Shown here: one piece after another, positions 10,638-27,794 of the stretch
How the letters are laid out: every line of letters starts with the position of its first letter
How positions within the stretch are numbered: the stretch's first letter is position 1
Virus record (IMG/VR): IMGVR_UViG_3300010885_021922
Span: 1-41,634 of that record
DNA length: 41,634 nucleotides
Direction: 5' to 3' (one strand)
Source of the DNA: a virus
Notes under the pieces: model-generated
What the model was told of the DNA's origin: nothing
The model's input: only the letters and a program-made list of their open reading frames with translations
Database searches by the model: none
Translations under genes and position numbers: made by a program

Positions 10638-11201
10638 ATGGAATTCACATTCAAAATAGAAAATTACTACCCTTATGAAAATAGGCTATTTGTGTTGTAC
10701 ACACCGATAGATGTACTTTTAGAGCCTATGGGGGGATGGGTCTACATTACGGCAAGCATGACGGAGAGCGAAATTCAAGATGCAGTTGTTGCCGCAGCAC
10801 CCATCGACAGGTGGGGCGTCACCAAAAATGTATTTGCTGGCAATATGGTTGGGTACACCAATACTGGCGTAAAGGTTCAAGGCGCTCCGTCTGAAATACC
10901 AGAACCTACCATAGCGGAATTAGCAGCCGAGTTTCAACGATCAGTAGTGTGTAGTGTGCAAAACCGACTAGATAGTTTTGCAGCTACAAAAAACTACGAC
11001 GGCATTCTCTCGGCTTGCTCTTACACCACCAGTGCTGTTCCCAAATTTGCCGCCGAGGCTCTGTATTGCAGTTCAGTTCGGGATGCAACATGGGCGGCGC
11101 TGTATCAGGGTCTTGCAGAAGTTGAAGTTGGCACTCGCCCAATGCCTAGCACCTACGCAGAAGTTGAGCTTCTTCTACCTCCACTGGAATGGCCTCTATG
11201 A
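10638..11201 (+). CDS. fibre-associated / tail-fibre assembly-like protein
   Basis: A 187-residue protein directly behind the fibre and propeller genes with a strong AGGAGG ribosome site. The C-terminal half contains a pattern common in proteins encoded after phage fibres: LDSFAATKNYDGILSAC, then FAAEALYCSSVRDATWAALY, then VEVGTRPMPSTYAEVE. Members are usually annotated as fibre-associated or hypothetical. A chaperone or cap role is inferred from position only. The stop overlaps the next ATG (ATGA). Confidence 0.65.
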   Translation: MEFTFKIENYYPYENRLFVLYTPIDVLLEPMGGWVYITASMTESEIQDAVVAAAPIDRWGVTKNVFAGNMVGYTNTGVKVQGAPSEIPEPTIAELAAEFQRSVVCSVQNRLDSFAATKNYDGILSACSYTTSAVPKFAAEALYCSSVRDATWAALYQGLAEVEVGTRPMPSTYAEVELLLPPLEWPL

Positions 11202-11431
11202 AAGCCCGCCTACTCCTGATCCTGATCCAGCTTGATGTGCTGCTGATGGTGACCCTGTTCGGTGGCAAGCGCAATGAAACCCTATCGGCAGCGGCGTGGG
11301 TTCTGCGCGAGGACGGCAAGTGGGCTGGCCGGTTGTTTGTGCCACTGATCGACTGGCTGATGACATGGATCGAGCGCGATCACTGTCAGGTGAGTTGGCT
11401 GGTTGAAAAAGACTTCTACCCGAAAGATTGA
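11198..11431 (+). CDS. small membrane-associated protein, 77 aa
   Basis: A 77-residue protein with a hydrophobic N-terminal segment (LLLILIQLDVLLMVTLF) followed by an amphipathic region and a conserved-looking end (LIDWLMTWIERDHCQVSW). Similar short proteins occur at the front of lysis cassettes in podoviruses of proteobacteria; their function is unknown. ATG 11198 overlaps the upstream stop (ATGA) and is preferred over ATG 11189. It is probably the first gene of lysis cassette A. Confidence 0.6.
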   Translation: MKARLLLILIQLDVLLMVTLFGGKRNETLSAAAWVLREDGKWAGRLFVPLIDWLMTWIERDHCQVSWLVEKDFYPKD

Positions 11432-11432
11432 T

Positions 11433-11732
11433 ATGGATGAACCAATTTTGCTGCGCCGAGCCGGGGACGGTAAAGAAGACTGTCCTGTGGGCGGCTGCAA
11501 GGCGATGGAAGTGCTGGAGTGGAGGTTCAATTTGAATCACGAACGCATGGATCGGATCGAGGCCAAGCTGGATCAGAACTGCGCTGATACGACTGAGGTG
11601 CTGGACATCCTGCGCTTGGGTAAATCATTTTTCCGGCTGGCCGGGTACTTTGGTGCGGTGGTCAAGTGGGTTCTAGGTATTGCCACTGCTGTGCTGATCT
11701 TTTGGGTGGCGCTTAGAGGGGTACCAAAATGA
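11433..11732 (+). CDS. putative holin/XhlA-like membrane protein, cassette A
   Basis: A 99-residue protein with a cytoplasmic-type N-terminal helical part (EWRFNLNHERMDRIEAKLDQN, a short coiled coil) and one C-terminal membrane segment (VVKWVLGIATAVLIFWVAL). This architecture resembles haemolysin XhlA-type phage proteins and single-pass holin candidates. Position directly before a SAR endolysin and spanins supports a role in lysis, either as holin or as antiholin/pinholin partner. ATG 11433 is chosen; the upstream in-frame TTG at 11403 overlaps the previous gene. The stop overlaps the next tiny ORF (ATGA). Confidence 0.6.
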   Translation: MDEPILLRRAGDGKEDCPVGGCKAMEVLEWRFNLNHERMDRIEAKLDQNCADTTEVLDILRLGKSFFRLAGYFGAVVKWVLGIATAVLIFWVALRGVPK

Positions 11733-11794
11733 TTGATTTGCTGTGGGACGCGCTGGCTGAGTGGCTTGATTTCTGGGGGAGCATTCTGCGATGA
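11729..11794 (+). CDS. 21-residue ORF coupled at both ends
   Basis: A tiny ORF encoding 21 residues, rich in Trp, Leu and acidic residues (MIDLLWDALAEWLDFWGSILR), predicted to be one amphipathic helix. Its ATG overlaps the stop of the holin-like gene and its stop overlaps the ATG of the endolysin gene, both as ATGA, so ribosomes would pass through it. It could be a membrane-active peptide or simply a device for translational coupling. No family recognised. Confidence 0.45.
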   Translation: MIDLLWDALAEWLDFWGSILR

Positions 11795-12264
11795 CTCCAG
11801 AGCAACGCACTGTCGTTCTTGCGCTGGCAACTGCCTTGGCCGTGCCATGCGAGGGACTGCGCCAGTATGCGTATCGGGATGTGACGGGCTTGCCCACGAT
11901 CTGCATGGGGGCCACCCGAGTGTTTGAGCGCGGGGTCGAAATTGGGGACTACTTTTCAGTGGCGCAGTGCAAAGAATTGCTTACCAAGGAGATGCTCAAT
12001 GTCATATCAGCCGTGGACAAATGCAGGCCGGGGTTACCGCCCCGTGTCCTCGCGGCGTTTAGTGATGCCGCATACAACATCGGAGCCACCGTCGCCTGCG
12101 ATACCCACAAGTCCACCGCTGCTAGAAAACTCAAGGCCGGTGACTACGTTGGCGCTTGCAATGAGTTGCCCAAGTGGGACAAGGCCAGAGTGGCCGGTGT
12201 GCTGGTGAGCTTGCCGGGGCTGACAAAGAGGCGGGAGATGGAGCGTGAGCTATGTTTGACATAA
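11791..12264 (+). CDS. SAR endolysin, GH24 lysozyme (R21-like), cassette A
   Basis: Muralytic lysozyme that cleaves the glycan strands of peptidoglycan. The 157-residue protein has a weakly hydrophobic N-terminal segment (about residues 7-19, TVVLALATALAVP) of the signal-anchor-release type, followed immediately by the catalytic motif: Glu21, Asp30 and Thr36 in the E-8-D-5-T spacing. Cys20 and Cys38 flank the triad and could take part in disulfide control, as known for some SAR endolysins. Such enzymes are exported by the host Sec system, stay tethered and inactive, and are released when the membrane is depolarised. It overlaps the 21-residue ORF upstream and the Rz gene downstream. Confidence 0.9.
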   Translation: MTPEQRTVVLALATALAVPCEGLRQYAYRDVTGLPTICMGATRVFERGVEIGDYFSVAQCKELLTKEMLNVISAVDKCRPGLPPRVLAAFSDAAYNIGATVACDTHKSTAARKLKAGDYVGACNELPKWDKARVAGVLVSLPGLTKRREMERELCLT

Positions 12265-12635
12265 CCCAATGTGTAGCAGTGGCAGTGGTGGCCGCAGCAC
12301 TGGGATTTAGTGCCGGGTGGAAAGTGACAGATTGGCGCTATGGCGCAAGGGAGAAAGATCGTGCTGAACAGGTACTGGTTGATGAGCGACTTACGGCGAC
12401 GGCGGCAATCAGACGCAGCGATGCCGTGGCGGCTGCACAAAATGCTGCGACTGTGCGGCTGGCTAGGCTGCGAGTGGATGCTGCTGGTAGCCGTACTGCT
12501 CTTATCAGCCTGTATGACGCCGCCACCAGTGCCCTGCTTAGTGCAGAAACTTCCCACTCCTCCTGCATTGACAGAGCCGCTGCCTCCGCAAACGTACTAA
12601 AACTCTTGGCGGGATTATTTTCGATACCACGTTGA
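12252..12635 (+). CDS. Rz: inner-membrane spanin Rz, cassette A
   Basis: A 127-residue i-spanin: an N-terminal membrane anchor (VAVAVVAAALGFSAGW) and a periplasmic Ala/Arg-rich helical domain. It overlaps the endolysin by 13 bp and contains the whole Rz1 gene in its +1 frame, the classic embedded spanin arrangement. The central part (AAQNAATVRLARLRVDAAGSR) aligns with the Rz of cassette B (AAQNASAARMVSLNRAAASSR), so the two are homologues. With Rz1 it would span the periplasm and fuse inner and outer membranes in the last step of lysis. Confidence 0.82.
   Translation: MFDITQCVAVAVVAAALGFSAGWKVTDWRYGAREKDRAEQVLVDERLTATAAIRRSDAVAAAQNAATVRLARLRVDAAGSRTALISLYDAATSALLSAETSHSSCIDRAAASANVLKLLAGLFSIPR
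12361..12600 (+). CDS. Rz1: outer-membrane spanin Rz1 lipoprotein embedded in Rz, cassette A
   Basis: A 79-residue o-spanin lying entirely inside Rz in the +1 frame. A hydrophobic stretch (WMLLVAVLLLSAC) ends in a lipobox with Cys51 as the lipidated residue, and the mature part is proline-rich (TPPPVPC, PTPPALTEPLPPQ). GTG 12361 is chosen because it follows a GGGAG ribosome site by 7 bp and because the resulting N-terminus (VLNRYWL in the reading frame) lines up with the Rz1 of cassette B (MNNRFWL). With these starts the lipobox Cys is residue 51 in both. Internal ATGs at 12421, 12442 or 12478 would give a shorter signal peptide. Confidence 0.8.
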   Translation: MLNRYWLMSDLRRRRQSDAAMPWRLHKMLRLCGWLGCEWMLLVAVLLLSACMTPPPVPCLVQKLPTPPALTEPLPPQTY

Positions 12636-12705
12636 ACAAGCTCTGCGTTGGCGGCGCTTCAGCGTGGGAAGTCGTTACTTCAGTCTAATTTTCAAAGGAT
12701 TCATC

Positions 12706-13254
12706 ATGGCAATCACCAAAACAACCCAGCCCTACGAATTTCTGGTTCGATGGACAAATGGCAGCGTCACCGGAGCGCATATCCGATTTCTGGAAACGCT
12801 TGCAGAAGATGGCGTGACCATCAGCGAAAAAGAAGGCAACGCACAAGCAGTGAGTCTTGCCGGGGAAGTCGGTTACCCTATCGCTGACGTGCTTAGTCTT
12901 GTGCAATCTACTGCGTTGTCTGATCTTGCAACCGCACAGGCCGCACTAGCCACAGCGCAAGCAAAAGTCACAGAGCTACAGGCCAAGATTGATGCCTACA
13001 CGCCACCTGTTAGCACTACCCCAACAGTGCCAACGTCGATCACGATGCGGCAAGCACGGCTGGCACTACTCGGTGCGGGTCTGCTCGATACTGTCAACGC
13101 TAGCATGGCTGGTATGGGCCAAGCGGCGCAGATAGAGTGGGAGTTTGCATCTGAAGTGCAGCGTAGCAACCCACTGATCGGGGCGATGGCAGCAGCACTG
13201 GGCATGACGGACGCGCAGCTTGATGATTTGTTTACTCTCGGGTCAACCTTATGA
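12706..13254 (+). CDS. phage protein with coiled coil and C-terminal QARLAL motif
   Basis: A 182-residue protein with an AAAGGA ribosome site before ATG 12706. It has an N-terminal domain, a helical coiled-coil stretch (about 80-105, DLATAQAALATAQAKVTELQAKI), a Pro/Thr linker, and a C-terminal helical module (ITMRQARLALLGAGLLDTVN, then IEWEFASEVQRSNPLIGAMAAALGMTDAQLDDLF). The C-terminal module is widespread at the ends of phage fibre-region proteins with unknown function. It follows cassette A and overlaps the next lipoprotein gene by ATGA. Confidence 0.6.
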   Translation: MAITKTTQPYEFLVRWTNGSVTGAHIRFLETLAEDGVTISEKEGNAQAVSLAGEVGYPIADVLSLVQSTALSDLATAQAALATAQAKVTELQAKIDAYTPPVSTTPTVPTSITMRQARLALLGAGLLDTVNASMAGMGQAAQIEWEFASEVQRSNPLIGAMAAALGMTDAQLDDLFTLGSTL

Positions 13255-13991
13255 AATATCTCCTGCTACCCTTGGTTCTACTCACCGGCTGTGCTTCGCA
13301 GAATTACACCAGCTATATTGCTGCTGAGACTGCACGCCATACTGCCGAGGGCGAGAAATACAAGGCAATGGCAGCGATTGCCGCTACCGGCTCAGACACA
13401 GCCAAAGTCGCCGCTGTAATGGCGATGGCGATGGGGCAGTCAGGTCAGGGCCAGCAGACGCAGGCTCCCGTAAATGAGGCTTTGCAGTGGGCCTCGATCC
13501 TTGTGCCGTCAATCACGCAAGTGGTTGGTATGAAATATCAGTATCTGAGCCAGCAAAACGCAAGTAATAACGCCACCGCAGTGGCAGTCAGCACCAACGA
13601 AACGATGGCGGGAATAGCTGGCAAAATCCAAGCGCCTGTGGCTAATATCACCACCACAACAACGCTCTCTGGCACCGGTAATCTCGGCAGCGGTTCCTAC
13701 ACGACCAATGCCAATCCGGTGCTTAGTGGCACTGGCACGCTCGGCAGCGGAGCCTATAGCACCGTGGACAATCATTCAGTTGACAACCACACAATCACTC
13801 CGACGCCTGTCACGGTCATAACCCCGGTAGTCATCACCCCCGTCACACCCACAGTGCCGGTAGTTATTGTCCCGCCTGTAACGCCCATTGTCCCTGTCAT
13901 CCCAACAGTGCCGGTCATTATTACGCCGGTAGTCAATACACCAACAACTGTTGTGTGCACCGTCTTAGCGGGAGTGACCTCGTGCAACTAA
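13251..13991 (+). CDS. phage-encoded lipoprotein with Pro/Val/Thr-rich tail
   Basis: A 246-residue predicted lipoprotein: signal peptide MKYLLLPLVLLTGC with a lipobox ending in Cys14. An Ala-rich helical part follows (about 20-120), then two GTGxLGSG(S/A)Y repeats (about 140-170) and a C-terminal tail of about 70 residues made almost only of Pro, Val, Thr and Ile. It could be displayed on the inner or outer membrane of the infected cell. A role such as superinfection exclusion (a moron) or a lysis accessory is possible from its position between cassette A and the scaffold gene, but no family is recognised. Confidence 0.6.
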   Translation: MKYLLLPLVLLTGCASQNYTSYIAAETARHTAEGEKYKAMAAIAATGSDTAKVAAVMAMAMGQSGQGQQTQAPVNEALQWASILVPSITQVVGMKYQYLSQQNASNNATAVAVSTNETMAGIAGKIQAPVANITTTTTLSGTGNLGSGSYTTNANPVLSGTGTLGSGAYSTVDNHSVDNHTITPTPVTVITPVVITPVTPTVPVVIVPPVTPIVPVIPTVPVIITPVVNTPTTVVCTVLAGVTSCN

Positions 13992-14049
13992 AATGCGTGA
14001 ACATAATAACCGTACTAGTTCGGCTAACTAGGGATTCGAAGGAATCAAA

Positions 14050-14805
14050 ATGCTAGATGAAGTTGTAGTAGCGGAAGTACCCGCGCCAGAACCGGTTGTC
14101 ACGGCGACATCGGCGACGGATGGTAGTGCGCCGGTTGTAGACACACCAGTTGTCCCACCCAAGACCTTCTCACAAGAGGAGTTGGATGCGGCAATCGGGA
14201 AAAGGCTTGCAAGAGAGCAGAGAAAATGGGAACGTGAACATCAGATTGCAGCCACACCACCTCCGGTGGATGTTGCCCCTGTCGATCAATTTGACTCTGT
14301 TGAAGCTTATGCTAAAGCAGTTGCCGAAAAGACCATCGAGCAGAGGGAAGAAATGCGGAGGCAGTCCGATGTCATCGAGCATTATCGTGAGCGTGAAGAG
14401 GAAGCGCGGAGTAAGTACGACGACTTTGACCAAGTTGCCTACAACCCCAAACTTATGATCACATCCGCGATGGCGCAGACGATCCAGCAATCTGATATGG
14501 GTACGGACGTGGCTTATTACCTCGGGTCGAACCCCAAAGAGTCGGAACGTATCTCCAAACTCGCGCCCTTTCTGCAAGCTAAGGAAATCGGGAAGATTGA
14601 AGCGAAGATCGCATCAGATCCCCCGGTAAAGAAAGTATCAAGTGCGCCAGCACCTTTTACTCCTGTTTCGTCCGGAGGGGGTAGCAATACTCCTAGTTAC
14701 GACACCACTGATCCTCGCTCGATTTCATCGATGACGACTTCTGAATGGATCGCGGCTGACCGGTTGAGGCAAGAGAAAAAATGGGCAGCGCAATATTCCC
14801 GCTAA
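14050..14805 (+). CDS. scaffolding protein
   Basis: A 251-residue, highly charged, mainly helical protein directly before the coat gene. It has an acidic, Pro/Val-rich N-terminus (1-38), a KTFSQEELDAAIGKRLAREQRKWE segment spread over residues 38-62, typical of phage scaffolds, a long central helix with EEMRRQSD...REREEEARSKYDDFDQVAYNPKLMITSAMA, and a basic C-terminal end (ADRLRQEKKWAAQYSR) that would contact coat subunits. Scaffolds direct prohead assembly and then leave the head. A GAAGGA ribosome site precedes the ATG. Confidence 0.85.
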   Translation: MLDEVVVAEVPAPEPVVTATSATDGSAPVVDTPVVPPKTFSQEELDAAIGKRLAREQRKWEREHQIAATPPPVDVAPVDQFDSVEAYAKAVAEKTIEQREEMRRQSDVIEHYREREEEARSKYDDFDQVAYNPKLMITSAMAQTIQQSDMGTDVAYYLGSNPKESERISKLAPFLQAKEIGKIEAKIASDPPVKKVSSAPAPFTPVSSGGGSNTPSYDTTDPRSISSMTTSEWIAADRLRQEKKWAAQYSR

Positions 14806-14826
14806 CTTCAATTTTAGGAGCCAATC

Positions 14827-16035
14827 ATGGCCGGTAATTCAATTCTCACGATTGACATGATCACAAGGAAAGCCCTTGAGATCTTGGAAAACAACCTTGT
14901 TCTGTCCCGGAACATCAATCGCCAATACGACGACTCGTTCGCCGTTGTCGGCGCGAAGATCGGTTCCACACTGCGTATCCGTCTTCCGGATCGCGCTTTG
15001 GTTACTGATGGCGCTGCCTTGCAGGTCCAGGACGACAATGAGCAGTTCACAACGCTGCCCGTGGCGACCCAAAAGCACATCGGCATTAACTTCACCTCTG
15101 CTGAGTTGACGATGCAGTTGGACGACTTCGCAGAACGTGTACTCAAGCCACGTATTTCGCAGTTGGCCTCCTCCGTCGATGCTGATCTGGCGACGGTCTA
15201 TAAGAATGTCTATAACTCTGTCGGCACCCCCGGCACTGTTCCGTCAACTTCTTTGGTGCTGTTGCAAGGCCAGCAGAAACTCAATGAGTTTGCAACCCCT
15301 ATGTCCCCCCGCTATGCCACTGTCAATCCTGCTGCGAATGCCGGGTTGGTTGAAGGCATGAAGGGTCTATTCAATCCGGGTGGCACTATCTCTTCGCAGT
15401 TCAAGAACGGCATGATGGGCACGGGCGTCTTGGGTTATGACGAGATTAACATGTCTCAGTCGATTCAGGTTCATACCACGGGCGCTTGGGGCACCACGAT
15501 CACTAGCACCGGAACTCTGTCTACTCAAGGTCAGGCAACGCTGCCGATCAGCTTCACTGGTTCTGCCCAGACCTGGAAACAGGGCGATGTGTTCACTATC
15601 GCTGAAGTCTATGCTGTGAACCCGCAGACTCGTCAATCAACTGGTTCGCTCCAGCAGTTTGTCGTGACTGAGGATGTCGCCAGTTCGAGCGCAACTGCAA
15701 CGGTGAAGATCTCTCCACCTATCTACACAGCGGCCCATGCGTTGGCTACTGTGAATTCGTTCCCTGTTGCCGGTAAGGCGGTTACGATGTTGGGTACTCT
15801 CAGCACTCAGTATCCACAAAACCTGATCTACCACAAGGATGCGTTCACCATGGCTACTGCCGACTTGCTGCTGCCTCAGGGTGTCGACATGGCTTCGCGT
15901 CAAGTCCATAATGGCATTTCGATGCGGATCGTTCGTCAGTACGATATCAACAATGACCGGATGCCTTGCCGAGTTGATGTCCTCTACGGTTTTGCCGCGA
16001 TTCGTCCAGTGATGGCCGCTCGTATCTGGGGCTAA
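14827..16035 (+). CDS. major capsid protein (P22 coat-like)
   Basis: A 402-residue HK97-fold coat protein of the P22 gp5 type. N-terminal landmarks are MITRKALEILENNLVLSRNINRQYDDSF and GAKIGSTLRIRLPDR, and GINFTSAELTMQLDDFAERVLKPRI follows. The middle (about 220-290), with SFTGSAQTWKQGDVFTIAEVYAVNPQTRQS, would be the inserted I-domain of the P22 family. The C-terminal end has VDMASRQVHNGISMRIVRQYDINNDRMPCRVDVLYGFAAIRP, spread over the last 55 residues. It has a good AGGAG ribosome site and lies between the scaffold and a decoration-like gene, as expected. Confidence 0.93.
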   Translation: MAGNSILTIDMITRKALEILENNLVLSRNINRQYDDSFAVVGAKIGSTLRIRLPDRALVTDGAALQVQDDNEQFTTLPVATQKHIGINFTSAELTMQLDDFAERVLKPRISQLASSVDADLATVYKNVYNSVGTPGTVPSTSLVLLQGQQKLNEFATPMSPRYATVNPAANAGLVEGMKGLFNPGGTISSQFKNGMMGTGVLGYDEINMSQSIQVHTTGAWGTTITSTGTLSTQGQATLPISFTGSAQTWKQGDVFTIAEVYAVNPQTRQSTGSLQQFVVTEDVASSSATATVKISPPIYTAAHALATVNSFPVAGKAVTMLGTLSTQYPQNLIYHKDAFTMATADLLLPQGVDMASRQVHNGISMRIVRQYDINNDRMPCRVDVLYGFAAIRPVMAARIWG

Positions 16036-16068
16036 GCCCTTAACCCTTTCAAACTTTAAGGAAAAATC

Positions 16069-16476
16069 ATGGCACTCCCTTCCGTTGGTGGTGGTCGTCA
16101 AGTTGGCGACGGTAATCTCAATGAGGTTGTTCTCACCACATCCCCCGCTCCCGCAACTTTCACAGCAACTGCAACCGTCACTGTTGCTGACATTCTTAGC
16201 GGGATCATTTCCTGCAATAAGGGGTCGGACGCAGCTACGGCATTGACTTTGCCTACCGTGGCTGATCTTGAGGCTCAGTTGGTCAATGCCAAAGTCGGTA
16301 GCTGCTTCGATGTGGTTGTTCTGAATGTGGCATCCGGGACTTCTGCTGATGTTACGGTCACTACAAACACAGGCTGGACACTCTCTGGTCTGATGGTTGT
16401 GCAGAATGCGTCTTCTGCCGCATTCCGTGCCCGTAAGACCGACACTGGCACTTGGTCGTTGTACGCCATTTCGTAA
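16069..16476 (+). CDS. putative head decoration protein
   Basis: A 135-residue, Thr/Val/Ala-rich protein predicted to be nearly all beta strand (TFTATATVTVADILSGII, VVVLNVASGTSADVTVTTNTGWTLSG). It follows the coat gene and has an AAGGA ribosome site. Size, composition and position fit a capsid decoration or stabilising protein. No catalytic motif is visible. Confidence 0.65.
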   Translation: MALPSVGGGRQVGDGNLNEVVLTTSPAPATFTATATVTVADILSGIISCNKGSDAATALTLPTVADLEAQLVNAKVGSCFDVVVLNVASGTSADVTVTTNTGWTLSGLMVVQNASSAAFRARKTDTGTWSLYAIS

Positions 16477-16482
16477 CCCAAA

Positions 16483-16502
16483 GCGGCCCCTAAAAAGGCC
16501 GC
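16483..16502 (+). promoter_or_regulatory. GC hairpin after the decoration gene
   Basis: Perfect 6-bp stem GCGGCC (16483-16488) and GGCCGC (16497-16502) around an 8-nt loop CCTAAAAA. There is no U-run after it, so it is more likely an mRNA-stability or processing element, or a weak attenuator, than a full terminator. Confidence 0.4.
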
Positions 16503-16518
16503 GAATCAAGGAAATATT

Positions 16519-16887
16519 ATGGGCGACACAAAATCAATTGGTATCGCATATCGCGACCAAGACCTTGACGGGTCTACCATCTCAAACTCCACTCTCTCGA
16601 ATTCCACCATCAATGCCTCATCGGTTGGGGCTAGTGGTGGCACGGTGGGTTTCTATGGGACTACCCCTATCGCAAAACCTGCGGCACTGACTGCACAACT
16701 CACTACCATCACGATTACGGATGCTGTGGGAACACCGGACTATGCTTTGTCAGCGTTAACCACTACTCTTCCTTATGGGTTGGCTACTGCTGCTGAGGCC
16801 ATTACTCTGATGTATGTCATCAAGAATCTTCAGGTTCGAATGGCTGAGTTGGAGACTAAGGTGGTTGCTCTCGGCCTAGTGGCCTAA
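16519..16887 (+). CDS. putative head fibre protein
   Basis: A 122-residue protein with an N-terminal Ser/Thr/Asn-rich stretch that looks like a short beta-helical repeat (DGSTISNSTLSNSTINASS), a GGTVGFYGTTPIAKPAALT segment, and a C-terminal helix/coiled coil (AITLMYVIKNLQVRMAELETKV). The GFYGxTPIAKP segment followed by a trimerising helix is the pattern of small head-fibre proteins. It lies in the coat-decoration group with an AAGGA ribosome site. Confidence 0.65.
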   Translation: MGDTKSIGIAYRDQDLDGSTISNSTLSNSTINASSVGASGGTVGFYGTTPIAKPAALTAQLTTITITDAVGTPDYALSALTTTLPYGLATAAEAITLMYVIKNLQVRMAELETKVVALGLVA

Positions 16888-16890
16888 ATC

Positions 16891-16917
16891 AAGTGCGCTC
16901 CCTCGGGGGCGTACTTT
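16891..16917 (+). terminator. strong hairpin before the gp4-like gene (attenuator candidate)
   Basis: AAGTGCGC at 16891 pairs with GGCGTACTT ending at 16917, giving a stem of about 11-12 bp with two G-U pairs and a tiny loop. Only a short UUU follows, and the AGGAG ribosome site of the next gene begins directly afterwards. It could lower expression of downstream tail genes relative to coat genes by partial termination or RNA processing. Confidence 0.45.
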
Positions 16918-16928
16918 AGGAGAACAAG

Positions 16929-20003: not shown

Positions 20004-20013
20004 GGAAAATACC

Positions 20014-21636
20014 ATGCCGACACTTGTACCTCCTCCCAAGATCCAGTTTTTCGACGCTAACGGAAACCCCCTTGTCGGGGGCAAGTTGTACACCTACGCA
20101 TCGGGGACTACCACCCCTCTTGCGACGTACACCAATTGGGGTGCGCTTACCCCGAATTCAAATCCTGTCATCCTGAATAGCCGGGGTGAGGCATCGGTAT
20201 GGCTTGCCAACGCCTCATATACTCTCTATTTGACGAGTGCCGCAGATGTTGCCATATGGTCTGTGGATCACATCGATGGGGATACAAGCGCGGCTATCTT
20301 GGCGGCACTGGCGGCACCTGGGGGATCGGCATTGGTTGGATTTCTCCAAGCGGGCACAGGTGCCGTTGCGAGAACCGCTCAGAACAAGATGCGGGATATT
20401 GTCAGCGTCAAAGATTATGGTGCCGTTGGTGATGGTGATATTGATGACCGTACCGCTTTTGTGAGAGCGTACACATACGCATATTCCATAGGTGCAGCAG
20501 TGTATGCTCCTCCCGGCTATTATTACATTAGTTCGGCTTTCAGCATCTATGAGGTCCCCTTGATCTATTCCCGTGGAGTAATATTTACACAGTTCAAGCC
20601 ACCGGGGGATGCTGGTAATATTTACGGGGAAGCTCTTGTCGCGTACCAAGCATCCGTCCAAAAGGCCGGGTTTATATCTCAGTCGGGAAGTGCTAATGAG
20701 ACAGGTTTGTATGTTGGACTCGTAAGCGCCACTAGCGGGGCACTATCGAATTACCAAAAGAATGCGATCTTTGCCCGTATCGTACAAGCCGATCCAAGCA
20801 CTACCTTAGCTTATCACGATGGCGTCGGGATAGAGGGACAAGGGATTATCCCGGCTACTAATGCGCTAGGTCGTGTTTGGGGTGTTCATGGTTTGGCATA
20901 TGTCACGAGTGGAGGTGATGGTTCGGCATACGGTGCGGAGTTTGAGGTGTACAACTTCGGGTCAGACCAACCATTAGTAGATACGTATACTTCGAAATAC
21001 GGTCTTCATGTCGTCGCGGGTGCGCATTTGACCACTGCCGGCATAAAGCTCACCGCAGCAGATGCGGGAAACATCTCGAATCCCAATAGAGGTTCTTTCA
21101 CCTACGGGATTTATTCTGACCCTGAGGCATTTCCTCAAGGGTATTTCATCGCGCTAAGAGATAGGATGTCCTTTAATGAAAATGGGCATCTTACTATTGG
21201 GGCAATGTTTCCTTACGATACGGAAACATTGACTACTAATTGGAGTTCTGGAACTTACGGTAAGTCTATGATGGTGAACACCAACTCTGGTGGATGCACC
21301 TATTGGGGCTTTGTGTATAAGAATGAAACGACCCCGGCAAACTCGAAGGTTTACAGTGTTGGAATCCAAAACACGGCTGGTGAATTCCGCATCACAAACC
21401 TCGATGATGGTGCGATGAACACTAACATCAACTTCTCCATCCTTGATAACGTAGGTATCGGATTGTTTGGTTCTGCGGCTACACATCTTGCGAATGGTAC
21501 TAAAGTCGTGTATCTGGCGAATTGCACAGCGGCCCCATCAGGCACACCCTTCGGAGGAGGTATCTTATATGCTGAGGCTGGCGCTTTGAAGTGGAAGGGT
21601 TCCAGCGGTACGGTAACTTCAATAGCTTCAGCTTAA
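20014..21636 (+). CDS. tailspike-like protein with pectate-lyase-type beta-helix start
   Basis: A 540-residue receptor-binding candidate. Residues about 10-90 form an attachment domain with the common phage pattern FFDANGNPLVGGKLYTYASG, LNSRGEASVWL and IWSVDHI. Residues from about 128 (VSVKDYGAVGDGDIDDRTAF) are the start of a pectate-lyase-3 type right-handed beta-helix, as in many tailspikes that bind or cut surface polysaccharide. The remaining helix and C-terminal part carry no recognised catalytic signature and no S74 chaperone. An AAGGA ribosome site precedes the ATG. Confidence 0.75.
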   Translation: MPTLVPPPKIQFFDANGNPLVGGKLYTYASGTTTPLATYTNWGALTPNSNPVILNSRGEASVWLANASYTLYLTSAADVAIWSVDHIDGDTSAAILAALAAPGGSALVGFLQAGTGAVARTAQNKMRDIVSVKDYGAVGDGDIDDRTAFVRAYTYAYSIGAAVYAPPGYYYISSAFSIYEVPLIYSRGVIFTQFKPPGDAGNIYGEALVAYQASVQKAGFISQSGSANETGLYVGLVSATSGALSNYQKNAIFARIVQADPSTTLAYHDGVGIEGQGIIPATNALGRVWGVHGLAYVTSGGDGSAYGAEFEVYNFGSDQPLVDTYTSKYGLHVVAGAHLTTAGIKLTAADAGNISNPNRGSFTYGIYSDPEAFPQGYFIALRDRMSFNENGHLTIGAMFPYDTETLTTNWSSGTYGKSMMVNTNSGGCTYWGFVYKNETTPANSKVYSVGIQNTAGEFRITNLDDGAMNTNINFSILDNVGIGLFGSAATHLANGTKVVYLANCTAAPSGTPFGGGILYAEAGALKWKGSSGTVTSIASA

Positions 21637-21646
21637 GGAATTAAAA

Positions 21647-21781
21647 ATGACACAAGAACAGATCAATGCCCTCTTTCTTCTTTTGGGAACTAAGGAGTTT
21701 GAGATTATGCAACTCCATAGAGCACTTGCTGAGGCAGAAATGAAACTCAAGAAGCTTGCTCAATTGGAAGAATCGAAATGA
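21647..21781 (+). CDS. 44-residue helical protein
   Basis: A short ORF with an AAGGA ribosome site that overlaps the stop of the tailspike region by no bases and the next ATG by ATGA. The 44 residues are predicted to be one long helix (LLLGTKEFEIMQLHRALAEAEMKLKKLAQLEE), probably a coiled coil. Function unknown; it could be a trimerisation peptide or a spike cofactor. It is too short for most ORF filters, but the ribosome site and coupling make it credible. Confidence 0.6.
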   Translation: MTQEQINALFLLLGTKEFEIMQLHRALAEAEMKLKKLAQLEESK

Positions 21782-22218
21782 CACAAGCCCTCGAGTCAGC
21801 GCCCATTTCCATGCGGGATCGGGTGCTTGCGCTTCAGGAGGAAGTGTCGAAGTTTCCTCAATACGAACCCGTCACCACACACACGTTCCATGCGGGTATG
21901 TATTGCCGGGAAGTATTTCGTGAGGCGGGGGTTCTTGTCGTGGGCAAGGTCCACAAGAAAGAACATTTCTATTTGATCGTATCGGGCACTGTTGCGATTA
22001 CCACGGATGATGGGGCGCAGGAAGTCACTGGACCTAAACTACTGTGCAGTAAACCTGGAACTAAGCGGGCGGTCTATGCTGTTACAGATGCTCTTTGTAT
22101 GACATTCCATGTCGTGACTGCCACCACGATAGACGACGCAGAAGCAGAGTTAGTGGAAAACGATATTAATGACATGTATCTTCCAGGAAATAAATTAAAG
22201 CAGGAGTACTTATCATGA
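21778..22218 (+). CDS. cupin-domain protein
   Basis: A 146-residue protein with a double-stranded beta-helix (cupin/RmlC-like) core: TFHAGMYCREVFREAGVLVVGKVHKKEHFYLIVSGTVAIT, TGPKLLCSKPGTKRAVYAVTDALCMTFHVV. The metal-binding histidine pattern is reduced (KKEHFY has a single His), so an enzymatic role is uncertain. Similar cupin proteins occur beside ejection genes in podoviruses. It is coupled by ATGA to the genes on both sides. Confidence 0.7.
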   Translation: MTQALESAPISMRDRVLALQEEVSKFPQYEPVTTHTFHAGMYCREVFREAGVLVVGKVHKKEHFYLIVSGTVAITTDDGAQEVTGPKLLCSKPGTKRAVYAVTDALCMTFHVVTATTIDDAEAELVENDINDMYLPGNKLKQEYLS

Positions 22219-22928
22219 CATTTTGGAATGTGGGTGCTATCGTAGGTAGCGCAGTAATAGGTGGTATCGGGGCAAACAAAGCAGCGGGGGTTCAAGCTGA
22301 CGCTGCTAATGAGGCCACTCAGCTTCAACGCGAACAGTGGCAACGGCAGCAGGAGAATCAAGCTCCTTGGCTTGCCGCTGGCACAAACGCATTGGCTCAG
22401 ATGACAGCGGGGACTCAGCCCGGGGGTAGGTACACTCAGCAATTCGGAATGGACCAATTCCAGAAAGACCCCGGATATGCTTTCCGAATGTCGGAGGGGA
22501 TGAAAGGACTTGATCGAACTGCTGCCGCTCGAGGGGGGTTACTCTCGGGGTCCACGCTCAAGGGTGCCATGCGATATAACCAGGACATGGGTTCTCAGGA
22601 GTATCAGAATGCCTACAACCGATTCAATCAGGGGCAGACCCAACAATGGAATCAGCTTGCGGGGCTTGCTGGTGTTGGTCAGACTGCTAATGCGGCGCTA
22701 GGTCAGGCCGGTCAGGCTTATGCGACTAATGCCGGTAACTACGGGATGCAAGGTGCTCAAGCGCAGGGTGCCGGGTACATGGGTGCTGCTAATATTATCG
22801 GGAATGCCATAAGTCAGGGTGTTGGGTCCTATCAACAGTCCAATCTCTTGAAAGCACTCCAGCAAAACCCTGGGCAATACGCATACAACGCTGGCGTCAA
22901 CTTCACAGCCCCTAATACTTACGGTTAA
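22215..22928 (+). CDS. DNA ejection/injection protein (small, Gln/Gly-rich)
   Basis: A 237-residue protein with a hydrophobic glycine-rich N-terminus (GAIVGSAVIGGIGANKAAG), then QADAANEATQLQREQWQRQQENQAPWLAAGTNALAQMTAG, a DPGYAFRMSEGMKGLDRTAAARGGLLSG segment, and a Gln/Gly/Ala-rich tail. This is the pattern of the first, smallest member of P22-type ejection (pilot) protein sets, which are packed in the head and injected to build a DNA channel. Two larger ejection candidates follow. Confidence 0.75.
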   Translation: MTFWNVGAIVGSAVIGGIGANKAAGVQADAANEATQLQREQWQRQQENQAPWLAAGTNALAQMTAGTQPGGRYTQQFGMDQFQKDPGYAFRMSEGMKGLDRTAAARGGLLSGSTLKGAMRYNQDMGSQEYQNAYNRFNQGQTQQWNQLAGLAGVGQTANAALGQAGQAYATNAGNYGMQGAQAQGAGYMGAANIIGNAISQGVGSYQQSNLLKALQQNPGQYAYNAGVNFTAPNTYG

Positions 22929-22937
22929 GGATAGATC

Positions 22938-24308
22938 ATGACACTTAATGATGTTATCGCACAGGGGATTCAGTTCAAGATGCCTAACATGCTGGAGCAG
23001 TATGCCCAGATGCAGCAACTCCAGGGGGGAGTGCAAGCGAACCAATTGAATCAGATGAAGATGCAGGAAATGCAGCGTTCTCTGCAGGAGCAGGAAGGAT
23101 TACGGAACTATCTGTCAACCGCCACTGACTTGACAACCCCCGCATCGCGCATGGAAATGCTTAAACACGGGGCAACGGGGTTGGCGTACGGTAAATCACT
23201 CGATGAAGCTCAAAAGGCTGGTATGGAACGCCAGAAGGCGAGTGCTGATCTAGTCGATGTCAAATTAAAACAGTCTCGTCAGATGTTGGAAGGGGTGACC
23301 ACACCAGATCAGTATTTGCAGTGGCATCAGGCGAATCATGCTGATCCCGTATTGGGCAAATATTTAGCTGATCGGGGGGTGTCTGCTGAACAGTCTCGTG
23401 CCCGAATCGATGCTGCGATTGCAGAAGGACCACAGGCATTTCAGCAAATGCTAAATGCTTCCAAACTCGGATCAGAGAAGGCGATGGAAAATCACTTCAT
23501 CGAATCCAGCAGTGGACAGCAGAAGTGGACAAGCACAGTTCCGAAATACGGGACAGGGGGCGCTCAGATCATTCCAGGCACTATCGTCAATCAGCTTGCT
23601 ACTCCGGGTGAACTTTCTACCGCAGCAACTGCACTTGCGGGGCAAAAAGTCACAGAGCGTGGTCAGAATATCACCGCAGCAACTGCCAAAGAGGGCCAAC
23701 GAATCACGACTGCTGGACAAATTAGTGTTGCACAAACAGCAGCTAATGCCCTCAAGCAAGCTGGTGACCCGGTTATTCAAGGTAATCTTGCAGCAGCACG
23801 GACAACTGGAGAGACAATCGCGAAAGATACAATCGCCGCAAAAGCTGCGTTGCCACAGATTATCGCCGATACCGAGAAAGGTGTTAAGCTTATTGATGAT
23901 GCTTTGGGATCGGCTAAAGTTGATGCTAAAACTGGCAAGGTCACATGGGGTAAAGGTGGTCCTTCTACTGCTGCTCGTGGATTTGGATCAGTTGGTGGAT
24001 TACTTACCCCACTACTCCAATGGGTACCGGGAACTGCTACGGCAGACTATGTAAAACGTCACGACCAGATCACGGGCAGTGCCTTCTTGAAAGCATATGA
24101 AACCCTGCGTGGCGCTCAAGCGATCACGGATATCGAGGGTGCGAAAGGTACCGCTGCCATTACCCGCATGTCAATGGCTCAATCCCCTGCTGAATATATA
24201 ATGGCCGCGAAAGAATTGCAGGATATCATGAAAGGAGGTCTTGTACGAGCGAAAGCCAAGGCCAGTGGCGCTGCTTCTATTGATTCCCTTCTTGAGAAGT
24301 ACAAATAA
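22938..24308 (+). CDS. DNA ejection protein (middle member)
   Basis: A 456-residue, mostly helical protein rich in Gln, Ala, Met and Lys (AQMQQLQGGVQANQLNQMKMQEMQRSLQEQ), with a long alanine-rich central helix region (about 230-330) and a C-terminal part that includes TDIEGAKGTAAITRMSMAQSPAEYIMAAKELQDIM. Composition, size and position between the small and the large ejection candidates fit the P22 gp20 class. It overlaps the next gene by TAATG. Confidence 0.72.
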   Translation: MTLNDVIAQGIQFKMPNMLEQYAQMQQLQGGVQANQLNQMKMQEMQRSLQEQEGLRNYLSTATDLTTPASRMEMLKHGATGLAYGKSLDEAQKAGMERQKASADLVDVKLKQSRQMLEGVTTPDQYLQWHQANHADPVLGKYLADRGVSAEQSRARIDAAIAEGPQAFQQMLNASKLGSEKAMENHFIESSSGQQKWTSTVPKYGTGGAQIIPGTIVNQLATPGELSTAATALAGQKVTERGQNITAATAKEGQRITTAGQISVAQTAANALKQAGDPVIQGNLAAARTTGETIAKDTIAAKAALPQIIADTEKGVKLIDDALGSAKVDAKTGKVTWGKGGPSTAARGFGSVGGLLTPLLQWVPGTATADYVKRHDQITGSAFLKAYETLRGAQAITDIEGAKGTAAITRMSMAQSPAEYIMAAKELQDIMKGGLVRAKAKASGAASIDSLLEKYK

Positions 24309-26284
24309 TGGCTACCCTTGAACAACTCAATGCGGCGTTGGTCAAGGCTGACGCTGCTGGCAATACTACTGATGCGAAAGCTTTCGCTGACGAGATCCGG
24401 AAAATGCGTGGAGTTGGAGAGGCCCCCGTCGCTCTAGCGGGTGCCACACCTACCACGGTGCCCGCCACTGCCGCGCCACGGGTTGAACTCACAGGTATGG
24501 CGCAGCCCGACAAGCCACAATCGGCATGGGAAAGAGCGTCCGGTGCTGATATTGTGGCCGGGTTGCCCCTTACTCGTGCTGTAATGGGCGTCGGCGCTCC
24601 CGTAATCGGGTTGGCACAACTTGGAGTAAATATAGCCGAGAAATTCGGACTAGATCCAAAATTTGGACAGGCGATCGCTGAACACGTTAGTACGCTGCAA
24701 GGCATGAAAGTACGTGGGATGGCCGCGCTTGGTGAACCCTCAAGTAATGATCTTATAGGTGGCGCAGCATCGATGGCGCTTCCCGGTGTGGGGTTGTCTG
24801 GTAAAATGGCCCCCGCTACTTCATATCTTGGTCGAGTAGCGCAAGGCGCGGGTGTGGGTGGGGCCGCTGGATTAACAACCCCAAGTGCGACTTCTGGATT
24901 GGAAGCCCAATTGGAACAGGGGGTAAGCGGCGCGGTATTGGGTGGAGGTATTCCTGCTGTTGCTCCCGCAGTTGCTGCTGTTGCTAGGGGTGGCTATCGT
25001 TCTATGGTTGAGCCTTGGTTGAATCCAGGTGCGATCAGGGGTCGGGCGTATCTAGAAGCCGCAGGAGAGAAGGCCCCGCAGATCTATAACGCTCTGATCA
25101 AAAATGAACAGCTTGTCCCCGGAAGTATGCCCACAGCAGGTCAAGCAGCAGTTGGGGCTAACCGACCTGAATGGTCAGCATTCCAGAAATCCGCTGCCGA
25201 GGGTGTGTTGCCCGAGAACTATCTTGCTCGAACTGATGCACAGAAGGCCGCACAAATTGCCCAAGTCCAAACGGTGGGGCAGACCCCCGCAGCGTTGAAA
25301 TCTGCTGAAGCGTCACGGGCTGCTGACGCGCTAATTAATTACGCCCGTGCAGAGACTGAAGGATTTGATGATGTCATGGCGAAAGCTATGAAGCCACAGA
25401 TCCGGCAGTTGATGTCAAACCCAAGCATCAAGGAAGCAAAAGTCGTGGCCGCTGATTTGGCAAGGCGGAATGGCATGAAGTTTGATGGCGGCGGATCTAT
25501 TGAAGGTCTGGATTGGCTGAAGAAGGGGTTAGATGAGAATATCGGTATCGCCTCCAAATCTACATCCGCTGTGGGCGATGCAAAATTACGCGCCCTGATG
25601 CAAGCCAAGGAAGATTTACTCGCAACGATCAAGGAACTCTCTCCCGCTTACGACGAAGCACGCAGCGCATTCGCAAAAGCTAGTGTTCCGATCAATCAGA
25701 TGGAAGTGGGCCAGTATCTTGAGAAGAAATTGGTTCCTGCTCTTGGTGAAGGTACGGGCGCTCTAAAAGCCCGTGGATTCGCTACCGCCGTTCAGGACGC
25801 CCCCGGAACTATTAAACGGGCACTTGGTGGTGGACCCCGTTACCAAGAACTGAAGGACGTCCTGACCCCACAACAGTTATCAGCGGTACGTTCTGTTGAG
25901 GACGATTTAGCGAGACAAGCCCGCGATGAATTATTAGCAGAGGCGGGATCCGCAACTGCCCCAAATGCATTGGATATTGCCACGGGGTCTATGCGGGCCG
26001 CTACTGGCGGTAAGGGTATTCCTAATCCACTTAGCCGTGTGGTGACCGTAGCAAATGCTCTGATTGGGCGACTTGAGGGCAAGATCGATAGGAAACTTGC
26101 CATCGAAATCGCCACTGAAATGTTGGATCCCAAAGCTACGGCAGCAGTGCTGAAAGAGGCCATGCAAAGAGAAGCGCGACGCAAAGGCACAAAGGCACTT
26201 ATAGGGATGGGGCGAATACCGGCTACATTTGTCGGTACCCAGAATATGCTAGCTCCAGAATCGCAAAATGCGATGGTGCCGTAA
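24308..26284 (+). CDS. DNA ejection protein (large member, P22 gp16-like)
   Basis: A 658-residue protein. An N-terminal helical domain (about 1-40) is followed by a Pro/Thr linker, a glycine/alanine-rich amphipathic and partly hydrophobic region (about 75-230, with GAPVIGLAQLGVNIAEKF and GVGGAAGLTTPSATSGLEAQLEQGVSGAVLGG) and a long helical C-terminal part. This arrangement is typical of gp16-like pilot proteins that insert into the inner membrane during DNA entry. It ends one base before the lysis cassette B start region. Confidence 0.7.
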   Translation: MATLEQLNAALVKADAAGNTTDAKAFADEIRKMRGVGEAPVALAGATPTTVPATAAPRVELTGMAQPDKPQSAWERASGADIVAGLPLTRAVMGVGAPVIGLAQLGVNIAEKFGLDPKFGQAIAEHVSTLQGMKVRGMAALGEPSSNDLIGGAASMALPGVGLSGKMAPATSYLGRVAQGAGVGGAAGLTTPSATSGLEAQLEQGVSGAVLGGGIPAVAPAVAAVARGGYRSMVEPWLNPGAIRGRAYLEAAGEKAPQIYNALIKNEQLVPGSMPTAGQAAVGANRPEWSAFQKSAAEGVLPENYLARTDAQKAAQIAQVQTVGQTPAALKSAEASRAADALINYARAETEGFDDVMAKAMKPQIRQLMSNPSIKEAKVVAADLARRNGMKFDGGGSIEGLDWLKKGLDENIGIASKSTSAVGDAKLRALMQAKEDLLATIKELSPAYDEARSAFAKASVPINQMEVGQYLEKKLVPALGEGTGALKARGFATAVQDAPGTIKRALGGGPRYQELKDVLTPQQLSAVRSVEDDLARQARDELLAEAGSATAPNALDIATGSMRAATGGKGIPNPLSRVVTVANALIGRLEGKIDRKLAIEIATEMLDPKATAAVLKEAMQREARRKGTKALIGMGRIPATFVGTQNMLAPESQNAMVP

Positions 26285-26285
26285 C

Positions 26286-26639
26286 ATGGAAGTATTCAAC
26301 TCAATTGAGGATAAGCGTTCAACCGATGCGATGATCCTTGACATGATTACCACCGTGTTGCAAGAGCAACGAAAACTGAGTTCTGCGCTGACTCAGCATA
26401 TCCAAGATGAATCGATTAATTTCGATAAGATGATACTTGCAGCCCTTGCCCTTGGATATCCCGGAGGGGATGCTGAAGAGCACCGCAGGGGTCACGAGTT
26501 GACTATAAGAGTATTGCTAAAGCGTATTGAATTTTGGGACAAGATGAAGATATCGGTGAGCAGTTGGGGACTCATTGGGGTATTGGGGGCATTGGCGTTA
26601 TGGGCATGGACCGGGTTCTTGAAGGGACCACATCCTTAG
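26286..26639 (+). CDS. putative holin-type membrane protein, cassette B
   Basis: A 117-residue protein with a helical cytoplasmic-type N-terminal part, the motif GYPGGDAEEHRRGHELTIR (about 58-76), which is common in single-pass phage membrane proteins, and one C-terminal membrane segment (SWGLIGVLGALALWAWTGFL). It stands directly before a lysozyme and spanin pair, so it is the holin candidate of cassette B, but the motif family has no proven function. ATG 26286 is preferred; an in-frame ATG at 26268 overlaps the previous gene. Ribosome site is weak. Confidence 0.6.
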   Translation: MEVFNSIEDKRSTDAMILDMITTVLQEQRKLSSALTQHIQDESINFDKMILAALALGYPGGDAEEHRRGHELTIRVLLKRIEFWDKMKISVSSWGLIGVLGALALWAWTGFLKGPHP

Positions 26640-26643
26640 GAAT

Positions 26644-27363
26644 ATGAAAATGAGAACTTCATCAAAAGGTCTATACACACTGAAAGGGCTTGAGGGCTTT
26701 CGGGGGAAAGCATATCAATGCCAAGCAGGACGTTGGACATGGGGATATGGGTCAACTGAGAATGTGAAGGAGGGCGATGAAATCACTGAACCCGACGCAA
26801 GCCTGTTGCTCAGTCGGGAACTCATCCCTTACGAACACGCAGTCTCGACAGCGACGAATGGTTGCTGTAATCAAAATCAATACGACGCGCTCGTCATGCT
26901 GGCCTGGAACATAGGCATTGAAGGGATGCGAACCAGTAGCGTCATCAAGGCCCATGATCGTGGAGACTTCATCGCTGCTTCCCGAGCATTCGGTCTATGG
27001 AACAAATACACTAATCCCGCGACAAAACAGAAAGTGGTCAGCACGGGTCTAACCCGCAGACGTGCCATTGAGGCAACCCTCTATCTCACACCTGTATTTG
27101 GTGAAGCGATAATTGAGATACCGCAGGCGGTGGAGCCTCCAAAACCCATGTCTGAAAGCACCATCAATCGGGCGGGATTAGTTGCCGGCAGTACTGCTAC
27201 GATTGCGGCGGTGACACAGACTGCCACGCTGATGAACCAGTTGAAGGATCAGGTCACAGAACTTGGCACATGGGTCGTACCGATCCTGTTGTTGTCAACT
27301 ATCATCTCGATTAGCTATATGGTCTATCAGCGATTCCAACAGCGAGAGCAGGGACACGTGTGA
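26644..27363 (+). CDS. GH24 lysozyme with Glu-Cys-Thr triad and C-terminal membrane segment, cassette B
   Basis: A 239-residue endolysin. The catalytic region EGFRGKAYQCQAGRWTWGYG has Glu17, Cys26 and Thr32 in the E-8-x-5-T spacing, with Cys where Asp is usual; natural E-C-T lysozymes are known and the T4 D20C variant is active. The domain continues to about residue 150 (NQNQYDALVMLAWNIG, TGLTRRRAIEATLY). After a proline linker the protein ends in a hydrophobic segment (WVVPILLLSTIISISYMVY) and a basic tail. There is no N-terminal signal or SAR segment, unlike the endolysin of cassette A. ATG 26650 may be the true start because it fits the AGGA site better. It overlaps the next gene by GTGA. 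Confidence 0.85.
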   Translation: MKMRTSSKGLYTLKGLEGFRGKAYQCQAGRWTWGYGSTENVKEGDEITEPDASLLLSRELIPYEHAVSTATNGCCNQNQYDALVMLAWNIGIEGMRTSSVIKAHDRGDFIAASRAFGLWNKYTNPATKQKVVSTGLTRRRAIEATLYLTPVFGEAIIEIPQAVEPPKPMSESTINRAGLVAGSTATIAAVTQTATLMNQLKDQVTELGTWVVPILLLSTIISISYMVYQRFQQREQGHV

Positions 27364-27794
27364 TATACAACTATGCCATCGTCGCCCTGATTGCCGCATC
27401 TATTGCGGGTGTGGGCACTTGGCGAGTGGAAGAGTGGCGATGGACTGCAAAGGAGGTGAAACGTGAACAACAGGTTTTGGCTGACCAGCAACGCATCGCA
27501 AAGGAGACTTTTCGGAAATCCGAGAAAGTCATTGCTGCCCAAAATGCCAGTGCTGCCCGCATGGTGTCTCTTAATCGCGCTGCCGCTTCTAGTCGTGATG
27601 CTCTTGGCAGCTTGCAGTACACCTCCGAAGTCCAGCGTCGAGCAGCCGCCGATTCCCTCTCTACCTGCACTGCCAATGCAGCTACCGTTGACCTCGTATT
27701 CGGCAAGTGTGGAGTTGCTCTTCAACGAGTGGCGGCAGATGCTGACCTCTGGGCGTCCACAGCCGTGATGCTGCACGATGCTTGCTTTAAATAA
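27360..27794 (+). CDS. Rz: inner-membrane spanin Rz, cassette B
   Basis: A 144-residue i-spanin starting at GTG, which overlaps the lysozyme stop (GTGA). It has an N-terminal anchor (YAIVALIAASIAGVGTW) and a charged helical periplasmic domain. The part AAQNASAARMVSLNRAAASSRDALGSL aligns with the Rz of cassette A. The Rz1 gene is embedded in its +1 frame with an offset of 103 bp (109 bp in cassette A). Its 3' end overlaps the convergent minus-strand gene by 8 bp. Confidence 0.8.
   Translation: MIYNYAIVALIAASIAGVGTWRVEEWRWTAKEVKREQQVLADQQRIAKETFRKSEKVIAAQNASAARMVSLNRAAASSRDALGSLQYTSEVQRRAAADSLSTCTANAATVDLVFGKCGVALQRVAADADLWASTAVMLHDACFK
27463..27768 (+). CDS. Rz1: outer-membrane spanin Rz1 lipoprotein embedded in Rz, cassette B
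   Basis: A 101-residue o-spanin. GTG 27463 follows a near-perfect AAGGAGGT ribosome site by 6 bp inside the Rz gene, strong evidence that this embedded frame is translated. The N-terminal 30 residues are basic, then a hydrophobic segment (WCLLIALPLLVVMLLAAC) ends in a lipobox with Cys51, and the mature part is proline-rich (STPPKSSVEQPPIPSLPALP). The C-terminal end (ASVELLFNEWRQMLTSG) is longer than in the cassette A copy. Confidence 0.82.
   Translation: MNNRFWLTSNASQRRLFGNPRKSLLPKMPVLPAWCLLIALPLLVVMLLAACSTPPKSSVEQPPIPSLPALPMQLPLTSYSASVELLFNEWRQMLTSGRPQP

Follow-up and report, generated by a model that had tools for sequence, protein, structure and literature searches.

Two lysis cassettes with homologous embedded spanins, one at the family lysis site and one among the tail-fibre genes, in a P22-like podovirus genome

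In embedded spanin loci of the lambda Rz/Rz1 type, the i-spanin Rz has an N-terminal transmembrane (TM) segment, and the o-spanin Rz1, a lipoprotein, is encoded wholly inside the Rz gene in the +1 frame. The same arrangement occurs twice in the IMG/VR virus record IMGVR_UViG_3300010885_021922, whose entire 41,634 bases were analysed (hereafter the window). Its two lysis cassettes, termed A and B, each comprise a candidate holin, a glycoside hydrolase family 24 (GH24) lysozyme and an Rz/Rz1 pair; unlike in the lambda type, two homologous pairs are present in one genome, and pair A lacks both C-termini. The lysozyme of cassette A may resemble the N-terminal signal-arrest-release (SAR) endolysins of the type of phages P1 and 21, as the N-terminal stretch that leads directly into its catalytic Glu is rich in Ala and appears weakly hydrophobic. 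It differs from them in being encoded in a tail-fibre island and in having a second lysozyme cassette in the same genome. The counterpart of cassette B is the holin-LysAP system of Acidovorax phage AP1 (PMC8879335), in which a holin candidate directly precedes a GH24 enzyme with a C-terminal TM segment (47-49% identity over the full length). LysAP lyses E. coli on its own, needs its C-terminal TM segment to do so, is slowed by azide and accelerated by the holin, and its authors read it as a C-terminal SAR endolysin that works with a pinholin and involves Sec (PMC8879335). A C-terminal TM segment and lysis independent of a holin are also reported for M4Lys and Enc34, two endolysins described as having catalytic domains of other kinds (PMC7143992, PMC8943055); M4Lys acts without Sec (PMC7143992), so that export may differ among endolysins of this topology. 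In Lessievirus phages and Burkholderia phage JC1 the spanins are kept and the holin/endolysin part varies, even among close relatives, between SAR and canonical types, but one cassette is described per phage (PMC9144972), whereas the window holds both sets. Finally, spanin loci have been postulated to pass through a two-copy stage in which one copy is shortened by deletion, a stage that was inferred from the comparison of different phages (Kongari et al. 2018; PMC6139136).

The two cassettes are a real and unusual gene set made from known parts. As originally predicted, the reading frames of both are open and both lysozymes belong to GH24, with the catalytic triads E-D-T in A and E-C-T in B. 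All cassette genes lie on the plus strand. Cassette A consists of the candidate holin (11433..11732), which has a soluble N-terminus and one C-terminal TM segment, the lysozyme (11791..12264; PF00959, 95.6 bits at a cut-off of 22.3), the 127-residue Rz (12252..12635), which matches the Rz-like spanin families phrog_2466, phrog_312 and phrog_1152, and Rz1, which runs from a GTG at 12361 to 12600 (a longer reading starts at ATG 12340) and has the lipobox LLLSAC. The triad spacing of the lysozyme, E21-x8-D30-x5-T36, and the Ala-rich hydrophobic residues 7-19 of its SAR-like segment were read directly from the sequence. Cassette B has the same order: a candidate holin (26286..26639), again with a soluble N-terminus and one C-terminal TM segment, the lysozyme (26644..27363; PF00959, 110.2 bits at the same cut-off) with a C-terminal TM segment and the spacing E17-x8-C26-x5-T32, also read from the sequence, a full-length Rz (27360..27794), whose best PHROG match is phrog_5777, of unknown function, and which also matches phrog_2466, and Rz1 from GTG 27463 to 27768, with the lipobox LLAAC and a C-terminal W box. 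Neither Rz1 has a PHROG match better than E = 0.05. For the candidate holin of A, PHROGs yielded no match and Pfam none above the cut-off; for that of B, neither database gave a match better than E = 0.09, and a comparison of the two holins showed no convincing similarity (best E = 4.4).

The lysozyme of cassette B is 47% identical to LysAP over the full length, C-terminal membrane segment included. When used as the sole query it found no relatives in viral contigs; an alignment of it with the AP1 enzyme found 126, of which 80 were kept, and a hydrophobic C-terminal segment occurs in 67 of the 81 resulting B-type open reading frames (ORFs; 80 loci and AP1). The original prediction that this enzyme has no SAR segment thus stands for its N-terminus and not for its C-terminus, which is of the LysAP type, published as C-terminal SAR. 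Cassette B differs from the AP1 system in three respects: the Cys of its triad takes the place of the catalytic Asp, the TM segment of its candidate holin is C-terminal, and an embedded Rz/Rz1 pair follows directly. No putative spanin is described for AP1 (PMC8879335). Downstream of the AP1 lysozyme we noted two ORFs, 5313-5702 and 5699-6004 (locus L125), that resemble a separated spanin pair, an N-terminal TM protein and a lipoprotein with the lipobox LLGGC.

The two spanin pairs share a common ancestry, as had been proposed. The two Rz proteins (40% identity) align with a score of 169 against a maximum of 69 in 2000 shuffles, the two Rz1 proteins (36%) with 104 against 71. The Rz match is not merely one of membrane segments, since the periplasmic part by itself scores 135 against a shuffle maximum of 64; the mature part of Rz1 by itself matches weakly, with a score of 48 that 12 of the 2000 shuffles reached. 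When Rz was compared with 18 other embedded-pair candidates, known relatives included, the single protein to outscore the match between A and B was that of Curvibacter phage PCA1. The outcome named in advance as a refutation, scores no higher than those of unrelated spanins, thus did not occur for Rz. Both Rz1 genes start from a GTG behind a purine-rich, Shine-Dalgarno-like stretch, both are embedded in the +1 frame, and in both the lipobox Cys is residue 51 counted from the GTG. A scan of both strands of the window for embedded lipoprotein/TM pairs, whose hydropathy filter (one N-terminal TM segment) both Rz proteins pass, returned the two cassette pairs and one antisense pair within the portal gene, which we take to be spurious.

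No second genome of this kind was found. Two GH24 genes occur in the window alone among 128 virus records searched, including all seven records with A-type lysozymes and 44 of the 80 with B-type lysozymes, which have one GH24 gene each. GH24 is absent from the 76 capsid relatives that were searched out of 80 identified; many of these are fragments, so that absence from any single record says little. These searches covered all capsid loci but L023, L069, L086 and L088 and all B-type loci but L251-L286. In an annotated phage collection the two lysozymes as queries matched 2028 places in 2016 records and 2401 places in 2394 records; a second place is thus rare there too. Literature searches on double lysis cassettes or modules, spanin pairs and endolysins returned no Gram-negative phage with two spanin pairs: within the passages available, two lysis modules are described for a staphylococcal phage only (PMC4111496), and SXP01 has two endolysins inside one cassette (PMC12571629). 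Spanins and endolysins swap between phages, and in the records and literature searched no other genome with two sets appeared.

The two cassettes had been predicted to be complete. Two cassettes with embedded spanin pairs are indeed present, but A is incomplete, since both its Rz and its Rz1 are truncated at the C-terminus. In an alignment of 13 Rz1 sequences that of A ends right after PQTY, while all 12 others extend beyond a conserved Y or F and have a W-x(3)-L box close to their end; likewise, all nine other Rz proteins in an alignment of ten (143-177 residues) extend past the end of Rz A. Cassette B keeps both segments, which are a trait of the spanin subfamily aligned here and not of all spanins. 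From these alignments we left out L229, whose Rz match is weak, L209, which was matched like L208, and L223, because its Rz match is N-terminal only and its o-spanin unrelated; L215 and the near-identical L224 and L225 were used in the Rz1 set only. From the scan of genome contigs, in which 3 of 80 matches reach query residue 230, loci entered the embedded-pair scan and the comparisons of parts and scores only. Immediately past its stop codon the Rz1 frame of A reads NSWRDYF, which resembles the lost W box, so that one small deletion in the DNA shared by the two genes is a plausible cause. Pair A would then have lost the C-termini of both overlapping proteins in a single event. It is probably weakened and heading towards loss or replacement, although the short pair may still work.

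Cassette B occupies the lysis site of its phage family. It lies between the ejection genes and an SNF2 helicase gene, and we compared this place in 12 long capsid relatives (34.7-38.4 kb) and two public genomes, DSL-LC05 and MW202483. Thirteen of these 14 references have one endolysin match each, to PF05838 in nine, PF13539 in three and PF08291 in one; the remaining one, G018, matched none of these three families. By computed positions the endolysin is found between the last ejection match and the helicase in 10 of 11 IMG/VR cases, where the placement in G010 and G011 presumes a circular map (no end repeat was found in either record); the eleventh, G008, has it behind the ejection genes, with the helicase landmark unmatched. 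DSL-LC05 and MW202483 have it at the same place according to their annotation. Embedded spanin-like pairs were detected at this site in G010, G014 and G018. The type of endolysin turns over at this single site in the podovirus group, with PF05838, PF13539 and PF08291 types in the references and GH24 in the window.

Cassette A, in contrast, is found within a tail-fibre island between the portal and scaffold genes. We read this interval in 7 of the 12 relatives, dropping minus-strand ORFs under 90 residues, and found fibre-like genes and genes of unknown function and, by inspection, no lysis-type gene; nor did the scan detect an embedded spanin-like pair within a portal-scaffold interval. Elsewhere it returned antisense matches in the portal genes of G018 and G026 and one match at 26.7 kb in G008. 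In MW202483 a protein amid the ejection genes (6892-8676) is annotated as a second lysozyme.

The relatives of cassette A are scattered. Its lysozyme is 67% identical to that of L002, a 4.9 kb contig with a single cassette, and 62% to that of L003/G001; L002 also has homologs of both proteins upstream of the lysozyme and of Rz and Rz1, five cassette A proteins in all, and was the sole match when the Rz alignment was searched in viral contigs. The first of the upstream proteins, a small one with an N-terminal hydrophobic stretch (11189..11431, plus strand), belongs to phrog_3342 (E = 2.3e-10), a family of unknown function; its homologs precede lysozymes by at most 1.5 kb in L002, L217, L218, L219 and L232; in the last four the lysozyme is of the B type. 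The second, the candidate holin, has homologs preceding lysozymes in L002 (31%) and L237 (39%), the latter again of the B type. Two plus-strand genes of unknown function lie downstream (12664..13991), the second of which starts with a lipobox. The first (12664-13254) has homologs in L239 (75%), L231 (53%) and L218 (34%), all at most 1.5 kb from a lysozyme, and in L239 and L231 near B-type lysozymes followed by related spanins; the second (13251-13991) has homologs directly after Rz/Rz1 in L212 (38%) and, but 9.5 kb from the lysozyme, in L207 (50%). Homologs of the candidate holin of cassette B precede B-type lysozymes in L239, L208, L209 and L238 (28-32%). At the DNA level the phage collection yielded no relatives of the cassette A region and, for the cassette B region, matches in the helicase part only; tblastn of Rz A in phages found none. 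GC content at third codon positions does not cleanly mark cassette A as foreign.

The top-scoring homolog of both Rz proteins is that of PCA1 (OP588919), which also has an embedded Rz1 and, like cassette A, places the pair between fibre and head genes; it differs in having one cassette (8.4 of its 57.8 kb were compared) and a DUF5675 protein in the place of the lysozyme. Rz B (37% identity to PCA1, E = 4e-15) scores 236 with PCA1 and 169 with Rz A, and Rz A scores 182 with PCA1 and 169 with Rz B. For Rz1 the best partner of A is L002 (38.9 bits, against 36.6 with B), that of B is PCA1 (34.7, against 26.6 with A). Since cassette parts are combined differently in other phages and each Rz protein has a better score with PCA1 than with its counterpart in the window, that of A by a small margin, these sequences are better explained by capture from a common pool than by a recent duplication. 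Of the origins first proposed, capture is thus the one we retain: cassette B at the family lysis site and A an addition in the fibre island. On balance the best joint explanation is probably that B sits at the family's own slot, that A was captured independently as a module and that the spanin pair of A has since been weakened. Both cassettes would have been drawn from lysis modules that have related embedded spanins and circulate as a pool among phages. The alternative that the spanin locus was duplicated within this phage lineage and a different endolysin acquired afterwards, which would agree with the path of duplication followed by deletion in Kongari et al. (2018), we consider distinctly unlikely. 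It would account for the identity of the two pairs and the shared Cys51, for a clade of A and B that the approximately unbiased (AU) test does not reject, and for one copy being shorter, as that model predicts (PMC6139136). Yet each Rz is closer by score to PCA1, A slightly so, and blastn finds no significant DNA similarity between the cassettes (best E = 0.088). Moreover, the holins and endolysins differ as well, and neighbours of cassette A have lysis-linked homologs that recur separately elsewhere. A recent tandem duplication as first choice was rejected on the same blastn and Rz results, though the trees permit it.

Less probable still is an assembly chimera in which one cassette was joined from another phage. 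That the record derives from IMG/VR leaves room for it, but both flanks of cassette A, portal on one side and scaffold/capsid on the other, match one set of relatives in an unchanged order, residues 2-41 of the first fibre of the island have matches in equivalently placed fibres of G006 and G019, and cassette B is at the family site. There is one set of head genes, collinear with that of the relatives, and on this ground we also rejected the possibility of two phages in one contig. Several observations weigh against an independent capture with a weakened pair A and against the lysis mechanism proposed below. The AU test leaves a clade of A and B standing (p = 0.17 for Rz, 0.54 for Rz1), the path between A and B is the shortest in the Rz1 tree, whose branches are long and poorly supported, and the blastp lead of PCA1 over B as the partner of Rz A is slight (64.3 versus 62.8 bits). 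Apart from the spanin tails, the reading frames of cassette A are intact, and the cassette is thus not plainly decaying. Cys26 of the cassette B lysozyme aligns with the catalytic Asp of LysAP (D24; PMC8879335). Finally, co-expression of the two cassettes is unsupported by scans of the window for promoters and terminators, which gave results no better than shuffles.

How the two sets would act in one cell may be pictured as follows. Both lie in the same run of plus-strand late genes and are for this reason probably expressed late. The lysozyme of A would be held by an N-terminal SAR segment and that of B, as a LysAP-type enzyme, by its C-terminal membrane segment; if the behaviour of LysAP applies, both would be parked at the inner membrane until either candidate holin depolarised it and freed both, after which spanin pair B would disrupt the outer membrane. 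Membrane-tethered enzymes that may be released together in this way would let the cassettes coexist without conflict. That the phage thus performs a double lysis with a shared trigger, N- and C-terminal SAR lysozymes being released by one depolarisation while its spanin pairs stand at different stages of replacement, is a tentative and rather doubtful proposal. The original prediction had also raised two lysis programs. Two working programs kept under selection, an N-terminal and a C-terminal SAR cassette that differ in time, host or membrane state, seem unlikely to us: the frames of A and B are open save for the shortened spanin tails of A, the endolysins are of different mechanistic types (PMC8879335) and the candidate holins lack convincing similarity, but no other record among those searched has two GH24 genes, no separate promoter rises above chance, and the truncation of pair A speaks mildly against two equal programs. 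We read the two cassettes rather as a transient redundancy.

The genome looks like the two-copy spanin stage postulated by Kongari et al. (PMC6139136), reached through capture and not through duplication. Because this one genome contains two homologous pairs, of which one is shortened in both frames, their idea becomes testable on natural genes, and the same phage combines two opposite lysozyme tethers, N-terminal and C-terminal. If the two lysozymes do share a trigger, the window would offer a live example of that stage together with topologically opposite tethered endolysins. Its apparently captured, partly shortened second set among the tail-fibre genes would represent an unusual intermediate in the exchange of lysis genes.

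As for the remainder of the genome, the window comprises the whole IMG/VR record and encodes a P22-like podovirus gene set, with small and large terminase, portal, scaffold, coat, head-closure and ejection proteins, each present once, and on the opposite strand a replication block of helicase, DNA polymerase, single-stranded DNA-binding protein (SSB) and exonuclease. The collinear, P22-like phage DSL-LC05 (OR003940) shares the SNF2 helicase, DNA polymerase, SSB, exonuclease and primase, and its capsid protein is 70% identical; unlike the window, it has one annotated lysis cassette, which is located where the window has cassette B and comprises an M15 peptidase and a holin annotated with three TM segments. 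A family Luchaoviridae has been proposed (PMC10611076), to which we matched DSL-LC05 by the order of names in a list. Among named phages the two closest to cassette B have as hosts Curvibacter and Paracidovorax oryzae, both Comamonadaceae, so that the host of the present phage may likewise lie in or near this family.

Some smaller features were also noted. Between the candidate holin and the lysozyme of cassette A, a possible 21-codon, Trp-rich ORF (MIDLLWDALAEWLDFWGSILR; 11729..11794, plus strand) has ATGA overlaps with both neighbours and may be due to chance; at the equivalent place L002 has a different Trp-rich ORF of 22 codons (1726-1794), and five of the seven other A-type lysozyme loci inspected have instead a hydrophobic protein of 75-90 residues directly upstream. 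In the fibre region, positions 9529-10626 encode a protein with sortilin/BNR-type repeats (PF15902, E = 1.1e-12). An 8-base tandem array, (CAATTTTT)n, occupies positions 1-123 and 41512-41634, so that the first and last 123 bases of the record are identical. The contig therefore probably closes, or was broken, within this array. Near the repeat end, positions 40404-41039 of the minus strand encode a protein of the Gene product 88 family (PF17338, E = 2.7e-23).

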